From positions 1 to 48,191 of the forward strand of contig CANQNG010000015.1 in assembly GCA_947625155.1 (NCBI GenBank): a stretch of DNA of 48,191 nt, read 5' to 3'. Within the stretch, counting starts at the first letter, position 1, and the number at the start of each line of letters is the position of its first letter. Below the pieces are notes generated by a model, which saw only the letters and a program-made list of their open reading frames with translations, was not told the DNA's origin and made no database searches. Below are positions 17,260-30,354 of the stretch, piece by piece. This DNA is from an uncultured Clostridia bacterium. GTDB lineage: Bacteria; Bacillota; Clostridia; Oscillospirales; Ruminococcaceae. The position numbers were made by a program, and so were the translations under genes.

Positions 17260-17288
17260 AATACTGGTCATAGTGGGTGGGTGGAGGT

Positions 17289-17363
17289 ATGGTGTCTGTA
17301 GAGATGCTGGCGCGCGGTTCATCTGGGCAGACAAATTTCAGTAAAGAGAGGTTACAAGGATGA
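17289..17363 (+). CDS. Possible 24-codon leader ORF ahead of the polydockerin gene
   Basis: ATG 17289 opens a 24-codon frame (MVSVEMLARGSS and on) whose TGA overlaps the ATG of the polydockerin gene as ATGA. GGAGG at 17283-17287 is too close to this ATG but suits the GTG at 17292. If translated, it would couple ribosomes to the scaffold gene. It may also be chance in a 95-base leader. Confidence 0.3.
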   Translation: MVSVEMLARGSSGQTNFSKERLQG

Positions 17364-19993
17364 AAAAGAAAGACAGATCATTTCTGTCGCGTGTGGCAGC
17401 CGGACTTTCCTCGGCGGCAGTTGCGATGACTTTTACGCTTCAGACCGGAGCTGGGATGTTTGCCCATGCAGAGGATGTCCTGCTCGGGGATGTAAACGGC
17501 GACGGACAGGTGGACTGGGATGATCACGATCTTTTGGATCGTGTTCTGACCGGTGAAGCATCACTTGAAGATCTCAGCAGTTTTCAGGCGGGCGATGTGA
17601 ACAGAGATGGGGGGATCGGTATCGCCGATCTGATGACTCTTGAGCAGATGCTCGATGGAGAGGGATCCGAAGAAGAAACAACAGATCCGAAAGATGTCCT
17701 GCTCGGGGATATTGATGGAGATGGTCAGGTATTCTGGTCTGACTATGAGATCATGAAAGAGTATCTCTATGGTTTCAAAACAACAGAAGTCACTGATCTT
17801 AAGGCATGGGATCTGAATGCAGACAATACGCTTGATTTGGCTGACTTGAACATTTTGGCAAAATTCCTCAATGGTGAGATCACAGAGCTGCCCTATACCG
17901 GAGAATATGAGGGCAACAGTTTTGATGTAAGACTTGCATTGGCAAACGGCGATGTGGATCTTGACGGAGCAATTACCGAGGAAGATGCAAGACTGATACA
18001 GGACTACGTGATCGGTCGTATTAGTCACATCGAACTTGCGGGAGCAGAAGGTGCTTCCATATACGGTGATTTTAACTGCGATGACAAAGTCGATTCTGCT
18101 GATGCGGCTGCCATCCTCCAGTATGTTGAGGAAGGAGACGTTGCCTTTGACTACATCGGCGAGCCGACTATAGACAAAAATGATTATGAACTTGAGCTGA
18201 TGTGGACGGAAATGGAGCCGGGGGAGACCGGAAGGATCAAGGGTCGTCTTGTTATCGATGGCGATGGCACCCAGTACATTGGGATAGAGGGCGTGATCGG
18301 CACGGATAGCTGCTTTACGATCTCCGACTGGGATGCAGATCAGGGGATCATGGACATCGAACCATATACGGGAGCATTTTCATGGATAATGCGGGCAGAA
18401 GACAGTCAGATGATATTCTTTGACCTTTATGTAGAAGTAAATGTGGAGGAAGAGGGTCACTACCCGGTCGACCTGTATGCGGATGTTATGAATGTTGCTG
18501 GTATCTCATCGGATCGGGTCAAGCTGAGTAATGGCGTGCTGACCGTGAGACCAGAGACCACCTATCCGGAAGATCCCTATCCGGAAGATCCCTATCCGCC
18601 GGAAGAGGAGCCTGTCACATTCAAAGAGCAGGCACTGGTAAACGGGGATGTGGACGTCAACGGTTACCTTACCACAGTTGATGCCTATATGATCATGAAC
18701 TATGCTGCCGGTTTGCTCAGCAATGCCGATTTCCCGTTGACCGACAGTGGTGGGGTCGTAGGAGATGGACCAGCGGTCGTGGTCATAGCACCGCAGCAAG
18801 CTTATAAAAATAGATATTTTGGCGATTTCAACTGTGACGGCAAGATCAATACTGCCGATGCAGCAGCGATCTTACAGTATCTTGACGAGGGGGACAGTTT
18901 CTTTCCCAAACTGACGAGTCCGTCCACAAACGAGATCGAGTGCGATTTATATCTGTCAAACGTTTGCCTCGAAAAGAGTAGTAGATATGCAGAAGGCACT
19001 ATCACTTTTGAAGTACCCGATACTGATGCAAAATGCGTTTCGATCGAAGGAAAACTTGCCGTTGATGGTGATCTCCGTGAGATGGGTCTTGAATTGACCG
19101 TAATGAAATGGGAGAATTCTGATGCATATCAGGGGCAACTTGTGTACGATCACGAAACAGGAGAGTTTTCGATGATCATTCCAAATGATGGCAGTGTTTT
19201 AGTGGATCTTACGTTTGCCTTGAGCAGTATTGAGTATGAACCTATTGTCGGATATTACGCTCTTTGTCTGGATGCTGACATTTCGACACTTGCAGGAAGT
19301 ACATCGGCACAAGCCACAAGCGAACTAGAAGTGTTTGGAGAGGAGATATATGTCCCTGACCCGATAGAACCTGACCCGATAGAACCCGACCCGATAGAAC
19401 CCGAGCCGACCGAGCCCGCATCAACTGAGCCCGAGCCGACCGAGCCCGCACCGACAGAGCCCGAGCCAACAGAACCTGTACTGACAACCGAGTCCGAGCC
19501 GACCGAACCCGAGCCGACCGAGCCCGCACCGACCGAACCCGACACGACCGAACCCGAGCCCGCACCGACTGAGCCCGCACCGACCGAGCCAGCACCGACC
19601 GAACCCGAGCCGACCGAACCCGAGCCGACCGAGCCCGCACCGACCGAGCCTGAAACAACACCGTATTCAGAGGAGCAGCTCATCGAGTGGGCGATGTATG
19701 ACTACGAGACAAGAAACGGTGCAGCTCCTGCGGATGCACAGCTGACCGAGAACGAGGATGATACGGTCTCGATCGTCCTGACCGATGCGGCGGGAGAGAT
19801 CTTGGAGACCTATGTGATCGACCCCGTGACCGGAGAGGGCGTATTCGGGGATGGTACTTATGTGACCCTGCCGCAGACAGGCAGATATGACATGACGAAT
19901 TATTACATTGCTTTCGGCGCATTGCTGTGCGTGGGCATGGGTCTGTTCCTCGTGATCCGTTCCGGACTGCTCCGCAAGAAACGTGAAAACTAA
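17360..19993 (+). CDS. Wall-anchored protein with four dockerin-like modules and two cohesin-like domains (LPQTG)
   Basis: An 877-residue surface protein, probably a cellulosome-related scaffold. Order: signal peptide (1-37, ending AHA); dockerin-like modules at 39-103 (DVNGDGQVDWDD, DVNRDGGIGIAD) and 113-174 (DIDGDGQVFWSD, DLNADNTLDLAD); a third at 194-262 (DVDLDGAITEED, DFNCDDKVDSAD); a divergent cohesin-like beta domain at 275-397 ending LSNGVLTV; a fourth dockerin-like module at 426-513 (DVDVNGYLTTVD, DFNCDGKINTAD); a second cohesin-like domain at 525-660; a PTEP-type linker (666-767); a small domain at 770-835; LPQTG at 837-841; a membrane helix and a KKR tail. Modules 3 and 4 with their following domains look like a duplicated unit. 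The cohesin calls rest on pattern only. The sortase gene overlaps its end. The start has AGAGG eight bases upstream. Confidence 0.85.
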   Translation: MKKKDRSFLSRVAAGLSSAAVAMTFTLQTGAGMFAHAEDVLLGDVNGDGQVDWDDHDLLDRVLTGEASLEDLSSFQAGDVNRDGGIGIADLMTLEQMLDGEGSEEETTDPKDVLLGDIDGDGQVFWSDYEIMKEYLYGFKTTEVTDLKAWDLNADNTLDLADLNILAKFLNGEITELPYTGEYEGNSFDVRLALANGDVDLDGAITEEDARLIQDYVIGRISHIELAGAEGASIYGDFNCDDKVDSADAAAILQYVEEGDVAFDYIGEPTIDKNDYELELMWTEMEPGETGRIKGRLVIDGDGTQYIGIEGVIGTDSCFTISDWDADQGIMDIEPYTGAFSWIMRAEDSQMIFFDLYVEVNVEEEGHYPVDLYADVMNVAGISSDRVKLSNGVLTVRPETTYPEDPYPEDPYPPEEEPVTFKEQALVNGDVDVNGYLTTVDAYMIMNYAAGLLSNADFPLTDSGGVVGDGPAVVVIAPQQAYKNRYFGDFNCDGKINTADAAAILQYLDEGDSFFPKLTSPSTNEIECDLYLSNVCLEKSSRYAEGTITFEVPDTDAKCVSIEGKLAVDGDLREMGLELTVMKWENSDAYQGQLVYDHETGEFSMIIPNDGSVLVDLTFALSSIEYEPIVGYYALCLDADISTLAGSTSAQATSELEVFGEEIYVPDPIEPDPIEPDPIEPEPTEPASTEPEPTEPAPTEPEPTEPVLTTESEPTEPEPTEPAPTEPDTTEPEPAPTEPAPTEPAPTEPEPTEPEPTEPAPTEPETTPYSEEQLIEWAMYDYETRNGAAPADAQLTENEDDTVSIVLTDAAGEILETYVIDPVTGEGVFGDGTYVTLPQTGRYDMTNYYIAFGALLCVGMGLFLVIRSGLLRKKREN
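19355..19660 (+). repeat. Tandem repeat coding a Pro/Thr/Glu linker
   Basis: Degenerate 9- to 15-base units of the type CCGACCGAGCCC encode PDPIEP, PEPTEP and PAPTEP repeats between the second cohesin-like domain and the sorting signal. Slippage here could change linker length. Confidence 0.9.
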
Positions 19994-20507
19994 GTCCCTG
20001 CGGCAGCGGATACTGTTCATTACCGGTATCCTTCTGATCGTTGCCGGGCTGAGTGTGCTTTCCTTTTTTGCAGTCAGAAAGGTGATCCGCATCGTACAGC
20101 TGCATGCACTCTTAGAGGAAAATGTGGTCGTAGAGATCCCGGCGCTTGACATCAAAGCACCAGTGCTGGAGGGAACAGATCAGGCTGTGCTCCGAAAGGG
20201 CGCAGGGCATTTTCCGGGAACAGGTGATGTGGGGTCGGGCAACTATTGCATTGCCGGACACAGCAGCACGGTCTACAAGGAATTTTTCAATGATCTGAAG
20301 AACATCACACCCGGCACGGAGATCTACCTTTATGACAAGCAAAAGAAGCGGTATACCTACATTTTCAGTGAAAGCTACATCGTCAGCCCGGAGGAAGTCT
20401 GGGTACTGAATGAGACACAGGACGACCGGATCACGATCATCACTTGTACAGACACGGGGGAACAGCGGCTGGTCGTCGTGGGAAAACGCCGTGACAGTAC
20501 ATCCTGA
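19983..20507 (+). CDS. Sortase, class D/E-like, dedicated to the upstream LPQTG protein
   Basis: A transpeptidase that cuts LPXTG between Thr and Gly and joins the protein to peptidoglycan. The 174-residue protein has an N-terminal membrane anchor (about 10-30) and a sortase fold with His93 (CIAGHSS), Cys155 (IITCTD) and Arg162 (EQRLVVVG), the full catalytic triad. The short length and TCTD motif suit class D or E rather than A or B. The GTG start lies inside the last codons of the upstream gene, an 11-base overlap, so translation is coupled and LPQTG of that protein is the obvious substrate. It ends in a strong terminator at 20588-20631. Confidence 0.93.
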   Translation: MKTKSLRQRILFITGILLIVAGLSVLSFFAVRKVIRIVQLHALLEENVVVEIPALDIKAPVLEGTDQAVLRKGAGHFPGTGDVGSGNYCIAGHSSTVYKEFFNDLKNITPGTEIYLYDKQKKRYTYIFSESYIVSPEEVWVLNETQDDRITIITCTDTGEQRLVVVGKRRDSTS

Positions 20508-27478: not shown

Positions 27479-27484
27479 TAAATG

Positions 27485-27624
27485 TGAAAAGTCCTCGGTG
27501 TCCGTCTGCCCCTGCTGCACTGGCGGGCAGGTCGGTGGGGTCTTTTGATGAACGTTTGCGGTGTCTGCCGCACAAAAAAACGGGCGCATGCCCGACAAAT
27601 TCTATTACGAGAGGGGAAATATCA
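27485..27624 (+). promoter_or_regulatory. Structured 5' leader of the GH48 mRNA
   Basis: About 140 bases with three stem-loops. CTGCCC/GGGCAG (27506-27530) is framed by AAAAG ... CTTTT and followed by GGGGTCTTTT, terminator-like. TGCGG/CCGCA is at 27557-27572. CGGGC/GCCCG is at 27581-27594, just ahead of the ribosome site GAGGGG. It could act as an mRNA stabiliser or attenuator. It matches no riboswitch family I know. Confidence 0.45.
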
Positions 27625-30354
27625 ATGCTTTTGAAGAAGAGCAAGGCTGTGATCGCCAGTGTTCTGTCCGCTGCGATGGCAGTCAATGCAATGGCAATGA
27701 CCATGTCGGCATCTGCTGCCGGCACAAGGACCAAGCCGGAAGCATACGGCGATTCTACTTATGCAGAACGTTTCATGTCCCTGTATGATGATGTTATCAC
27801 ACACGGCATCGACAACGGCTACATGGGCAAGAGCGGCGTTCCGTACCATGCAGTTGAGGAAGTTATCGTCGAGGCACCTGACTATGGTCATGTAACGACA
27901 TCTGAGGCTATGTCCTATCTGGTATGGGCATCTGCTATGAGAGACAATATCGTGACCAATCACAAAGATCAGGTCTCTACCGGCGACATTGCGAGTCAGT
28001 CCGCAGGCGATCTGGCTAAGGCATGGAAGACCATGGAGACCCTGATCCCGGATGTACAGGATAACTTCTGGACGGCTGGCTCCGTCAGCGCACAGTATAC
28101 CGGTGAGTATGATACGCCCGATCAGTGTCCGGGCGAATGGGGCGCAGAGCCTGAAAAGACTGGCGTGAACCCGATCTACAGCTACTTCACCAGCGTTTAC
28201 CATGGCAAGAGCGGCACAGGCGGTCTGTACCTGATGCACTGGCTGGCTGACGTTGACAACTGGTATGGCTACGGCGGTTCTGAGACCAAGACCGTACTCA
28301 TCAACACGTTCCAGCGTGGTGAGCAGGAGTCCTGCTGGGAGACCATCCCGCATCCCTGCGTAGATGAGATCAAGTTCGGTATCCCGGGCAGAGGTCTGAA
28401 GGGCTTCTTCAACCGTGATCAGCAGGTAACTGCACAGTACGCATACACCAATGCACCTGACGCTGAGGACCGTGCGATCCAAGGTGTATTCGATGCGGAT
28501 ATGTGGGGCGTTGGCGACGCTTCCGTTTCTGCTAAGGCAGCAGAGATGGGCGACGAAATGCGTAACAACATGTTCGATAAGTACTATCAGAAGATCGATG
28601 AGGCTACTTCTGTCAATAGCTGGAACAACACCCCGAATGCTACTGACGGCTGCCACTATCTGATGAACTGGTACACTTCTTGGGGCGGTGCTCTTGCAAG
28701 CTCCGGTCAGAGCTGGTGCTGGCAGATCGGCTGCTCGCACTGCCATGAGTTCTATCAGAACCCGCTGGCTGCTTTCGCTCTGATCACCGATGATGCGATG
28801 GATATGAAGGCACAGGGTGCTGATGCTGACTATACCAAGTCTCTGGAGAGACAGATCGAGTTCTATCTGTGGCTGCAGTCCAATGACGGTCCGATCGCCG
28901 GCGGTGCTACCAACTCCTACAAGGGCAGATATGTGGCTTATCCGGATGGTGCTTCTACGTTCTACGGCATGGTCTACACACCGCATCCTGTATACGCTGA
29001 CCCGGGTTCCAACCACTGGATCGGTAACCAGGTATGGGCTGTACAGCGTCTGTCTGAGCTGTATTACTGGGTAAAGACCAATGGCGACAACACAGGTGTT
29101 AAGCCGGGCGGCATGACACTTGAGGCAGCGCTGGAGCGTATCCTCGACAAGTGGGTCGCTTGGTTCGTCAACAACACGCTGCTCACCGAGGATGGCGACT
29201 TCTACATCCCGTCTAACCTCGACTGGGGCGCAGATGACTTTGACACCACACAGCATCCGGATACTTGGACAGGTACACCGACCGATAATACGAGCCTGCA
29301 CTGCACGATCAGCGGTTACGGCAATACAGACTTCGGCTGCGTATCTTCTCTGGCAAATACGCTCATCTACTACGCTGCTGCCAAGAAGGTCGATGCTGGC
29401 GACATCGTTGACTACACCGAGTCCTCTGTCGGCGGCGCATTCAAGGGCTTTGACGGCGTAGATGCAAAGGCTGGTACAGCTACCTATGAAAAGGACGATG
29501 CAAAACTTCCGGCTGTAGGTCTGTATCTGGCAAAGCAGCTGCTTGACCGTGAGTGGGAGATCGGCCGTGACGATATCGGTCTGACCAGAACGGATCACAA
29601 TGGTTCTCTCGCACGTATGTTCAGCCAGCCTGTATACGTTCCTGAGGACGGTACAGCAGGTGTAAGCAGCTTTACTGGTACGATGCCGAACGGCGATGAG
29701 ATCAAGAACGGCGCAACGTTCCTGAGCATCCGCTCCATGTATCTCGACAGCAGCAAGTGCGTCGGCGGTACAAAGACCTCTGACGAGGCAATTGCCCTTG
29801 TTAAGGAGCTGCAGGCAGCTTATGATAAGGACGTTAAGGAAAACGGCGCTAAGTGGTCTGGCAACTACTCCGCATCCTCTCCGGAGGGTCTTGCAGAGTT
29901 GGCTAAATTCACCAACGTTGGTGCTGTGGATCTCCAGTACCACAGATTCTGGCATGCTGGTGACATCATGATGGCACTCGGTGCAATGGCAAATCTGTAT
30001 CCTGAACTGACACCGGATGAGTCGATACCAGAGCCGATCCCGACCGATCCTGATCCGACGGATCCTGATACGACGGATGATACCAAGCCTACCCCGACGG
30101 ATGATACCAAGCCTACCCCGACGGATGTTGTTTGGGGCGACGCTGACTGCAGCGGATTCACCAATCTGCAGGACGTTGTTCTGGTCAACAAGATGCTGCT
30201 CAACATTGATAACACAGAACTGACCGATCAGGGTGCCACCAATGCCGATGTAGACGTAGACGGCGCTGTTACACCTCAAGATGCACTGAACATTCTGTGT
30301 CTTGTCATCGATCTGTACACCGTGGATGATTTCCCGATGACAGCACAACAGTAA
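27625..30354 (+). CDS. GH48 processive exocellulase with C-terminal dockerin
   Basis: The key cellulosomal exoglucanase, releasing cellobiose from cellulose chain ends. The 909-residue protein has a signal peptide (about 1-31, ending ASA), a GH48 catalytic domain (about 35-800) with the signature VEAPDYGHVTTSEAMSYLVW holding a catalytic-site glutamate, a Pro/Thr/Asp linker with repeats (DDTKPTPT twice), and a dockerin (about 835-909) with calcium loops DADCSGFTNLQD and DVDVDGAVTPQD. GH48 is usually single-copy and marks true cellulose degraders. ATG 27625 follows GAGGGG; codon bias is that of a highly expressed gene, like gap. It is monocistronic, with a consensus promoter and a terminator. 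Confidence 0.96.
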   Translation: MLLKKSKAVIASVLSAAMAVNAMAMTMSASAAGTRTKPEAYGDSTYAERFMSLYDDVITHGIDNGYMGKSGVPYHAVEEVIVEAPDYGHVTTSEAMSYLVWASAMRDNIVTNHKDQVSTGDIASQSAGDLAKAWKTMETLIPDVQDNFWTAGSVSAQYTGEYDTPDQCPGEWGAEPEKTGVNPIYSYFTSVYHGKSGTGGLYLMHWLADVDNWYGYGGSETKTVLINTFQRGEQESCWETIPHPCVDEIKFGIPGRGLKGFFNRDQQVTAQYAYTNAPDAEDRAIQGVFDADMWGVGDASVSAKAAEMGDEMRNNMFDKYYQKIDEATSVNSWNNTPNATDGCHYLMNWYTSWGGALASSGQSWCWQIGCSHCHEFYQNPLAAFALITDDAMDMKAQGADADYTKSLERQIEFYLWLQSNDGPIAGGATNSYKGRYVAYPDGASTFYGMVYTPHPVYADPGSNHWIGNQVWAVQRLSELYYWVKTNGDNTGVKPGGMTLEAALERILDKWVAWFVNNTLLTEDGDFYIPSNLDWGADDFDTTQHPDTWTGTPTDNTSLHCTISGYGNTDFGCVSSLANTLIYYAAAKKVDAGDIVDYTESSVGGAFKGFDGVDAKAGTATYEKDDAKLPAVGLYLAKQLLDREWEIGRDDIGLTRTDHNGSLARMFSQPVYVPEDGTAGVSSFTGTMPNGDEIKNGATFLSIRSMYLDSSKCVGGTKTSDEAIALVKELQAAYDKDVKENGAKWSGNYSASSPEGLAELAKFTNVGAVDLQYHRFWHAGDIMMALGAMANLYPELTPDESIPEPIPTDPDPTDPDTTDDTKPTPTDDTKPTPTDVVWGDADCSGFTNLQDVVLVNKMLLNIDNTELTDQGATNADVDVDGAVTPQDALNILCLVIDLYTVDDFPMTAQQ

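Follow-up and report, generated by a model that had tools for sequence, protein, structure and literature searches.

The wall anchor of the Ruminococcus flavefaciens cellulosome, ScaE, is a sortase-anchored surface protein with a single cohesin and without a dockerin in the sections that describe it (PMC2930009, PMC4081043), and a 'ScaE-like' scaffoldin of strain FD-1, ZP_06142991, is assigned a group-1b dockerin in passages of PMC2930009 and PMC5301203. Adaptor scaffoldins carry one cohesin and one dockerin, or in FD-1 also two cohesins and one dockerin, and section 6 of PMC4081043 mentions no wall anchor for them. Polydockerins are also described: seven tandem dockerins occur in one protein in R. 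flavefaciens 17 and 007c (PMC4081043), up to 13 per protein were reported from a rumen gene catalogue (PMC7260996), and passages of two papers call the function of multi-dockerin proteins unknown (PMC7260996, PMC12484212). Here we analyze an 877-residue predicted surface protein encoded in a 48,191-nucleotide stretch of DNA (contig CANQNG010000015.1, hereafter the window) of an uncultured Ruminococcaceae bacterium, in which several dockerins, two cohesin-like domains, a stalk and a sorting signal stand in one chain. We give about an even chance to the reading that this is a wall-anchored scaffoldin uniting polydockerin, adaptor and anchor, a combination found whole only in this genome among those searched.

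Domain architecture of the window protein

Calcium-binding loops were searched with the pattern D-x-[DN]-x-[DN]-x-x-h-x-x-x-D. Eight canonical loops were found, at residues 44, 79, 117, 151, 198, 237, 430 and 489, against a mean of 0.05 and a maximum of 2 in 5000 shuffles of residues 39-664. They form four dockerin-type pairs, D1 to D4, as the first-pass annotation had proposed, and a Pfam scan of the whole protein returned Dockerin_1 in five stretches (E 4.2e-29). The pairs have the makeup of type I dockerins, with two EF-hand-type loops, acidic or amide ligands at positions 1, 3, 5 and 12, and matches to PF00404. The Pfam match is near full length in D1 and D2, and D3 is recognized mainly through a local dockerin hidden Markov model (HMM). 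In D4 the two loops lie 47 residues from each other, compared to 23, 22 and 27 in D1, D2 and D3, and because of this insertion of some 20-25 residues D4 is recognized from its loops and from split matches only. Residues 40-184, which span D1 and D2, align with a solved dockerin tandem, chain 8x3a_A, over its residues 3-145 (E 9.9e-12), and no beta domain lies behind either of these dockerins. One such domain follows D3 and another follows D4. The resulting dockerin-beta units (residues ~188-400 and ~418-664) are 36% identical to each other and lie near the duplicated unit previously placed at 194-397 and 426-660.

The chain continues through a PTEP-rich stalk and a ~70-residue module to the LPQTG sorting signal. 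Stalk and signal had likewise been predicted in the first pass, and both Gram_pos_anchor (22.4 bits, cut-off 20) and TIGR01167 score above their cut-offs. With a signal peptide called by eye, an LPXTG motif, a hydrophobic stretch and a positive tail, the protein has the features of a sortase-anchored surface protein and is predicted to be secreted; a sortase gene overlaps the end of its open reading frame (ORF).

Comparison of the beta domains with cohesins

Cohesins have a beta-sandwich fold of the jelly-roll type. The four copies of the beta domain, two in the window protein and two in a paralogue described below, are related to one another, as demonstrated by leave-one-out HMM searches (i-Evalues 2.7e-11, 3e-31, 3.5e-30 and 2.7e-18). 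A beta profile (A1) run against 38 genomes of the genus at E 0.01 matched these four copies and one ScaB-type cohesin (E 4e-5). In profile comparison by hhalign, a four-row beta profile scored 51.2 against 81 cohesins, with 18.8 as the best of 200 shuffles; extending the four-row alignment lowered the score slightly, to 46.8. For the AlphaFold2 (AF2) model of beta2, the first 17 rows of VIA-align were cohesins; the AF2 model of beta1 was too poor to be used, and the predicted local distance difference test (pLDDT) was below 50 in the dockerin part. The obtained profile results bear out the two cohesin-like domains of the first-pass annotation, and by sequence comparison the beta domains most probably descend from ruminococcal cohesins. 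A strand that seemed lost from beta1 in a first alignment was rejected as a difference, as a longer N-terminus mostly closed the gap.

Paralogue and distribution

The paralogue, encoded on contig C5 of the same genome, has 767 residues and consists of a signal, two dockerin-beta units, a PTEP stretch, the same C-terminal module and LPQTG, without D1-D2. Over its C-terminal 109 residues it shares 96% identity with the window protein (15 of 327 nucleotides differ), and the other blastp pieces are 29-41% identical; tblastn with the window protein gave 63% over residues 412-877, C-terminus included. The leaders (residues 1-38) share 76% identity, and the DNA of leader and first codons (window 17286-17459) is 88.6% identical over 175 bases, above the other aligned pieces. 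About 20 bases 3' of the paralogue's stop match the sortase gene. The leader identity and this sortase remnant suggest that the pair arose by duplication of a locus with the sortase beside it. Within the genome, the C-terminal module and LPQTG were found together only in these two proteins.

The dockerin-beta unit was present in 1 of 38 genus genomes (searched with the beta part) and 1 of 394 sampled genomes of the order (up to six candidates scored per genome), namely this one, so conservation across species cannot support a function. Dockerin-bearing LPQTG proteins were a minority, 4 of the 36 distinct LPQTG-ended ORFs compared, which are a subset of those found and include at least one incomplete ORF; the paralogue was merged with the window protein in this count because their last 60 residues agree. 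The other three (L062, L162 and L177, from three congener genomes) are alike; each has one mid-protein dockerin and by eye reads as C39-peptidase-like, L062 and L177 also as GH25-like, with Pfam applied to L062 only. Separately, an 863-residue polydockerin-like protein with many DxDCDG/DFNCDG-type loops was seen in Ruminococcus sp. RGIG8024 (L042:3747-6338).

Cellulosome components and dockerin groups of the genome

The genome has a cellulosome, since PF00404 matches 63 places, contig C6 contains a cluster of ScaC-, ScaA- and ScaB-like genes (named by layout), and the window itself holds, ~7.5 kb further on, a GH48 gene whose end is dockerin-like, as judged from its plus-strand Pfam match and last residues. 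The scaC-scaA-scaB order of the cluster is also the one given for R. flavefaciens in the pertinent part of PMC4081043. A protein on contig C23 with a signal, a cohesin-like domain, a TTT linker and an SPQTG signal (TIGR01167 over cut-off) is by layout probably a ScaE-like wall anchor, its putative cohesin being without a Pfam match. Conventional anchoring is thus probably present, and the wall dockerins would be an addition to it, not a replacement. A probable lipoprotein on contig C4 has a cohesin-like end (partial match to a two-row profile, E 2.6e-7). Two further loci were noted: a probable cohesin-dockerin adaptor gene with a sortase gene directly after it (contig C8, L078:428-2106), and a 284-residue lipoprotein gene (contig C3, L040:8392-9246, minus strand) in which the C-terminal half of a cohesin seemingly precedes the N-terminal half, perhaps a permuted cohesin or an assembly fault.

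Dockerins were collected from 48 of the 63 PF00404 places as own loci, together with those of the paralogue and the scaffoldins. The comparison took in 49 rows, drawn from 47 loci of this genome other than the window protein and paralogue; split or short matches (including L097, L111 and part of the ScaB-like dockerin) and same-place duplicates (L040, L050 and L078) were left out. By eye, most dockerins of the genome fall into three groups, LNxYLL/DALNILxYVI, QKWLL/VFDLALLK and DDATxILKYIA, and the dockerin of the window's GH48 gene resembles the first. The first repeats of D1 and D2 have a tryptophan at loop position 10, which was found in 0 of 94 loop matches in other dockerins, some loops being counted twice. 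In the dockerins of L008, L097, L102, L111 and L128 the loop-helix repeats look order-swapped, with the FDLALxK-like repeat first (by eye).

Proposed function and alternative explanations

In the reading that we favor, the protein would be a scaffoldin that starts with a double dockerin at the N-terminus and goes on with two dockerin-cohesin units and a long stalk. The neighboring sortase, judging by its adjacency, probably fixes the protein to peptidoglycan via LPQTG. Held out on the stalk, the dockerins may capture cohesin-bearing proteins, and the diverged cohesins could in turn capture dockerins, so that the cell would have a further layer of docking sites in addition to the ScaE-like anchor. 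If so, the cell wall itself could catch pieces of the fibre-degrading machine. The first-pass annotation had described this as reverse polarity. The anatomy does imply wall dockerins, but a probable ScaE-like cohesin anchor is present in the genome as well, and the claim is further narrowed by the dockerin-bearing LPQTG proteins of three congeners and by the position of D1-D4 outside the main dockerin groups of the genome.

Several results weigh against a scaffoldin. The Pfam cohesin model PF00963 does not match the beta domains, a five-row cohesin profile (A9) did not find them at E 1, and the 81-sequence cohesin HMM reached the window protein only at E 0.16; the relation obtained with the four-row beta profile is weak or negative when searched from cohesins to the window. 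By hhalign against cohesins, the two beta rows of the window gave a probability of 22 and each row singly ~1; the two rows of the paralogue gave 95. Foldseek ranked collagen-binding adhesin domains at the top. D1-D4 share at most 41% identity with any of the 49 dockerin rows and are unlike all the main groups, so that no partner can be named. Finally, the dockerin-beta unit was not found in the other genomes among the 38 of the genus and the 394 sampled from the order, leaving an arrangement known from a single genome. PF00963 likewise misses the ScaA-like and ScaE-like proteins of this genome and matches one ScaB-like stretch. The beta domains suggest cohesins that have drifted past the Pfam model, in which case ruminococcal cohesin counts may be too low.

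The main alternative is a calcium-stiffened rod or adhesin, which we regard as possible but doubtful. The EF-hand pairs and beta sandwiches would then be structural spacers off the wall, and the beta domains would no longer bind dockerins, with fibre or other cells as possible ligands. Against this, the canonical ligands are kept in all eight loops, D1-D2 match a solved dockerin tandem, and the profiles, as compared with those of cohesins only, point to cohesins.

The recurrence of the dockerin-beta unit, four times in two proteins, is consistent with a self-associating surface layer, in which dockerins would pair with the cohesin-like domains of their own or neighboring chains, in cis or across molecules or cells. 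In all four units the second dockerin loop starts with DFNCD and the middle and end of the first loop vary, as if a constant partner held one dockerin face, and R. bromii offers a parallel in Amy4, which has both modules and is credited with self-aggregation potential in the passage on it (PMC5814915). Four related copies cannot, however, tell contact from common descent, and at the low pLDDT of the dockerin part no contact is visible in the model; we consider such a layer unlikely. An extended form of this idea, to which we attach slightly less belief again, would be a wall-fixed, self-complementary protein whose modules bind across adjacent molecules or cells and form a calcium-dependent surface lattice, with the free N-terminal double dockerin capturing scaffoldins, so that the wall receptors would be dockerins as well as cohesins. 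A surface enzyme or unrelated function, with the dockerins as ordinary cellulosomal tags and the anchor used transiently, is highly improbable: the genus does have LPQTG proteins in which enzyme-like domains accompany a single mid-protein dockerin, but neither in the window protein nor in its paralogue does Pfam detect an enzyme domain.

Features of the window

The features are collected in Table 1. A profile of the ~70-residue C-terminal module with the sorting signal (A8) matched 28 of the 38 genus genomes, and many of the surface proteins in the genus have the module ahead of LPQTG. In several genus genomes it also ends lipoprotein-like proteins of ~300 residues, and for this reason it may be a general cell-envelope module. 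These ~300-residue proteins were considered as ScaE candidates and rejected, as the seven read of that size look like lipoproteins by eye.

Table 1. Location of the window protein, its modules and neighboring genes (window coordinates).
Feature	Coordinates	Strand	Basis
877-residue surface protein: signal, D1, D2, D3-beta1, D4-beta2, PTEP stalk, C-terminal module, LPQTG anchor	17360..19993	+	
Probable signal peptide, residues 1-37	17360..17470	+	by-eye call from sequence
Dockerin D1, loops 44 and 79	17483..17653	+	PF00404 E 1.2e-7
Dockerin D2, loops 117 and 151	17702..17872	+	PF00404 E 5.6e-10
Dockerin D3, loops 198 and 237	17945..18136	+	local dockerin HMM 2.5e-20; PF00404 partial
beta1, cohesin-like domain of unit 1, residues 263-400	18146..18559	+	leave-one-out HMM 2.7e-11
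Dockerin-like D4, loops 430 and 489, insertion between repeats	18644..18898	+	loops, split matches
beta2, cohesin-like domain of unit 2, residues 515-664	18902..19351	+	AF2 model, VIA-align, profile comparison, leave-one-out HMM 3e-31
PTEP-rich stalk, residues ~667-766	19358..19657	+	sequence
~70-residue module, residues 767-836, between stalk and LPQTG	19658..19867	+	A8 profile
Sorting signal: LPQTG (residue 837), hydrophobic stretch, positive tail	19868..19990	+	Gram_pos_anchor; TIGR01167 18 bits, cut-off 15.9
Sortase gene, overlapping the ORF end	19983..20507	+	PF04203 E 1.7e-31; TIGR01076 75.6 bits, cut-off 39.35
GH48 gene with C-terminal dockerin-like end	27484-30354	+	PF02011 E 2.5e-175; PF00404 18.9 bits, below cut-off 22.9

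Comparison with known systems

Like ScaE, the window protein carries the signals of a sortase-anchored cellulosomal surface protein. It falls outside the ScaE type, a wall anchor with a single cohesin and without a dockerin, because it has dockerins, in four pairs, and because its cohesin-like domains are diverged and number two; the PTEP stalk and the LPQTG motif set it apart further. The nearest reported precedent, compared by description, is the FD-1 protein ZP_06142991, which is ScaE-like and putatively cohesin-bearing and has a dockerin in addition; that description gives neither a module count nor the presence of the wall signal, and the likeness may be closer. With the ScaC-type adaptors the window protein shares the presence of both modules in one chain. 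With the polydockerins it shares several non-identical dockerins, but in the sections describing polydockerins there is no mention of a wall anchor or of cohesin-like modules, and the window protein has both. The tandem dockerin chain 8x39/8x3a, to which D1-D2 can be aligned for 145 residues (E ~1e-11), is labelled Serine protease in its PDB file, whereas the window protein has no protease by Pfam and has a wall anchor. In R. bromii, Sca5 combines two cohesins with a sortase signal, and the parts of PMC5814915 on these proteins describe no one protein with both modules and a sortase signal. Within open-access PubMed Central, in the titles, abstracts and sections consulted, we met no wall-anchored polydockerin with cohesin modules.

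Dockerin receptors on the wall, if confirmed, would be added to a field whose described wall anchors display cohesins. As the sortase anchor would place multiple dockerins on the cell surface, polydockerin function, possibly scaffoldin capture, becomes directly testable. As far as the consulted parts of the literature go, ScaE-type anchors, cohesin-dockerin adaptors and polydockerins are each known singly, and it is their combination in one protein that is new.
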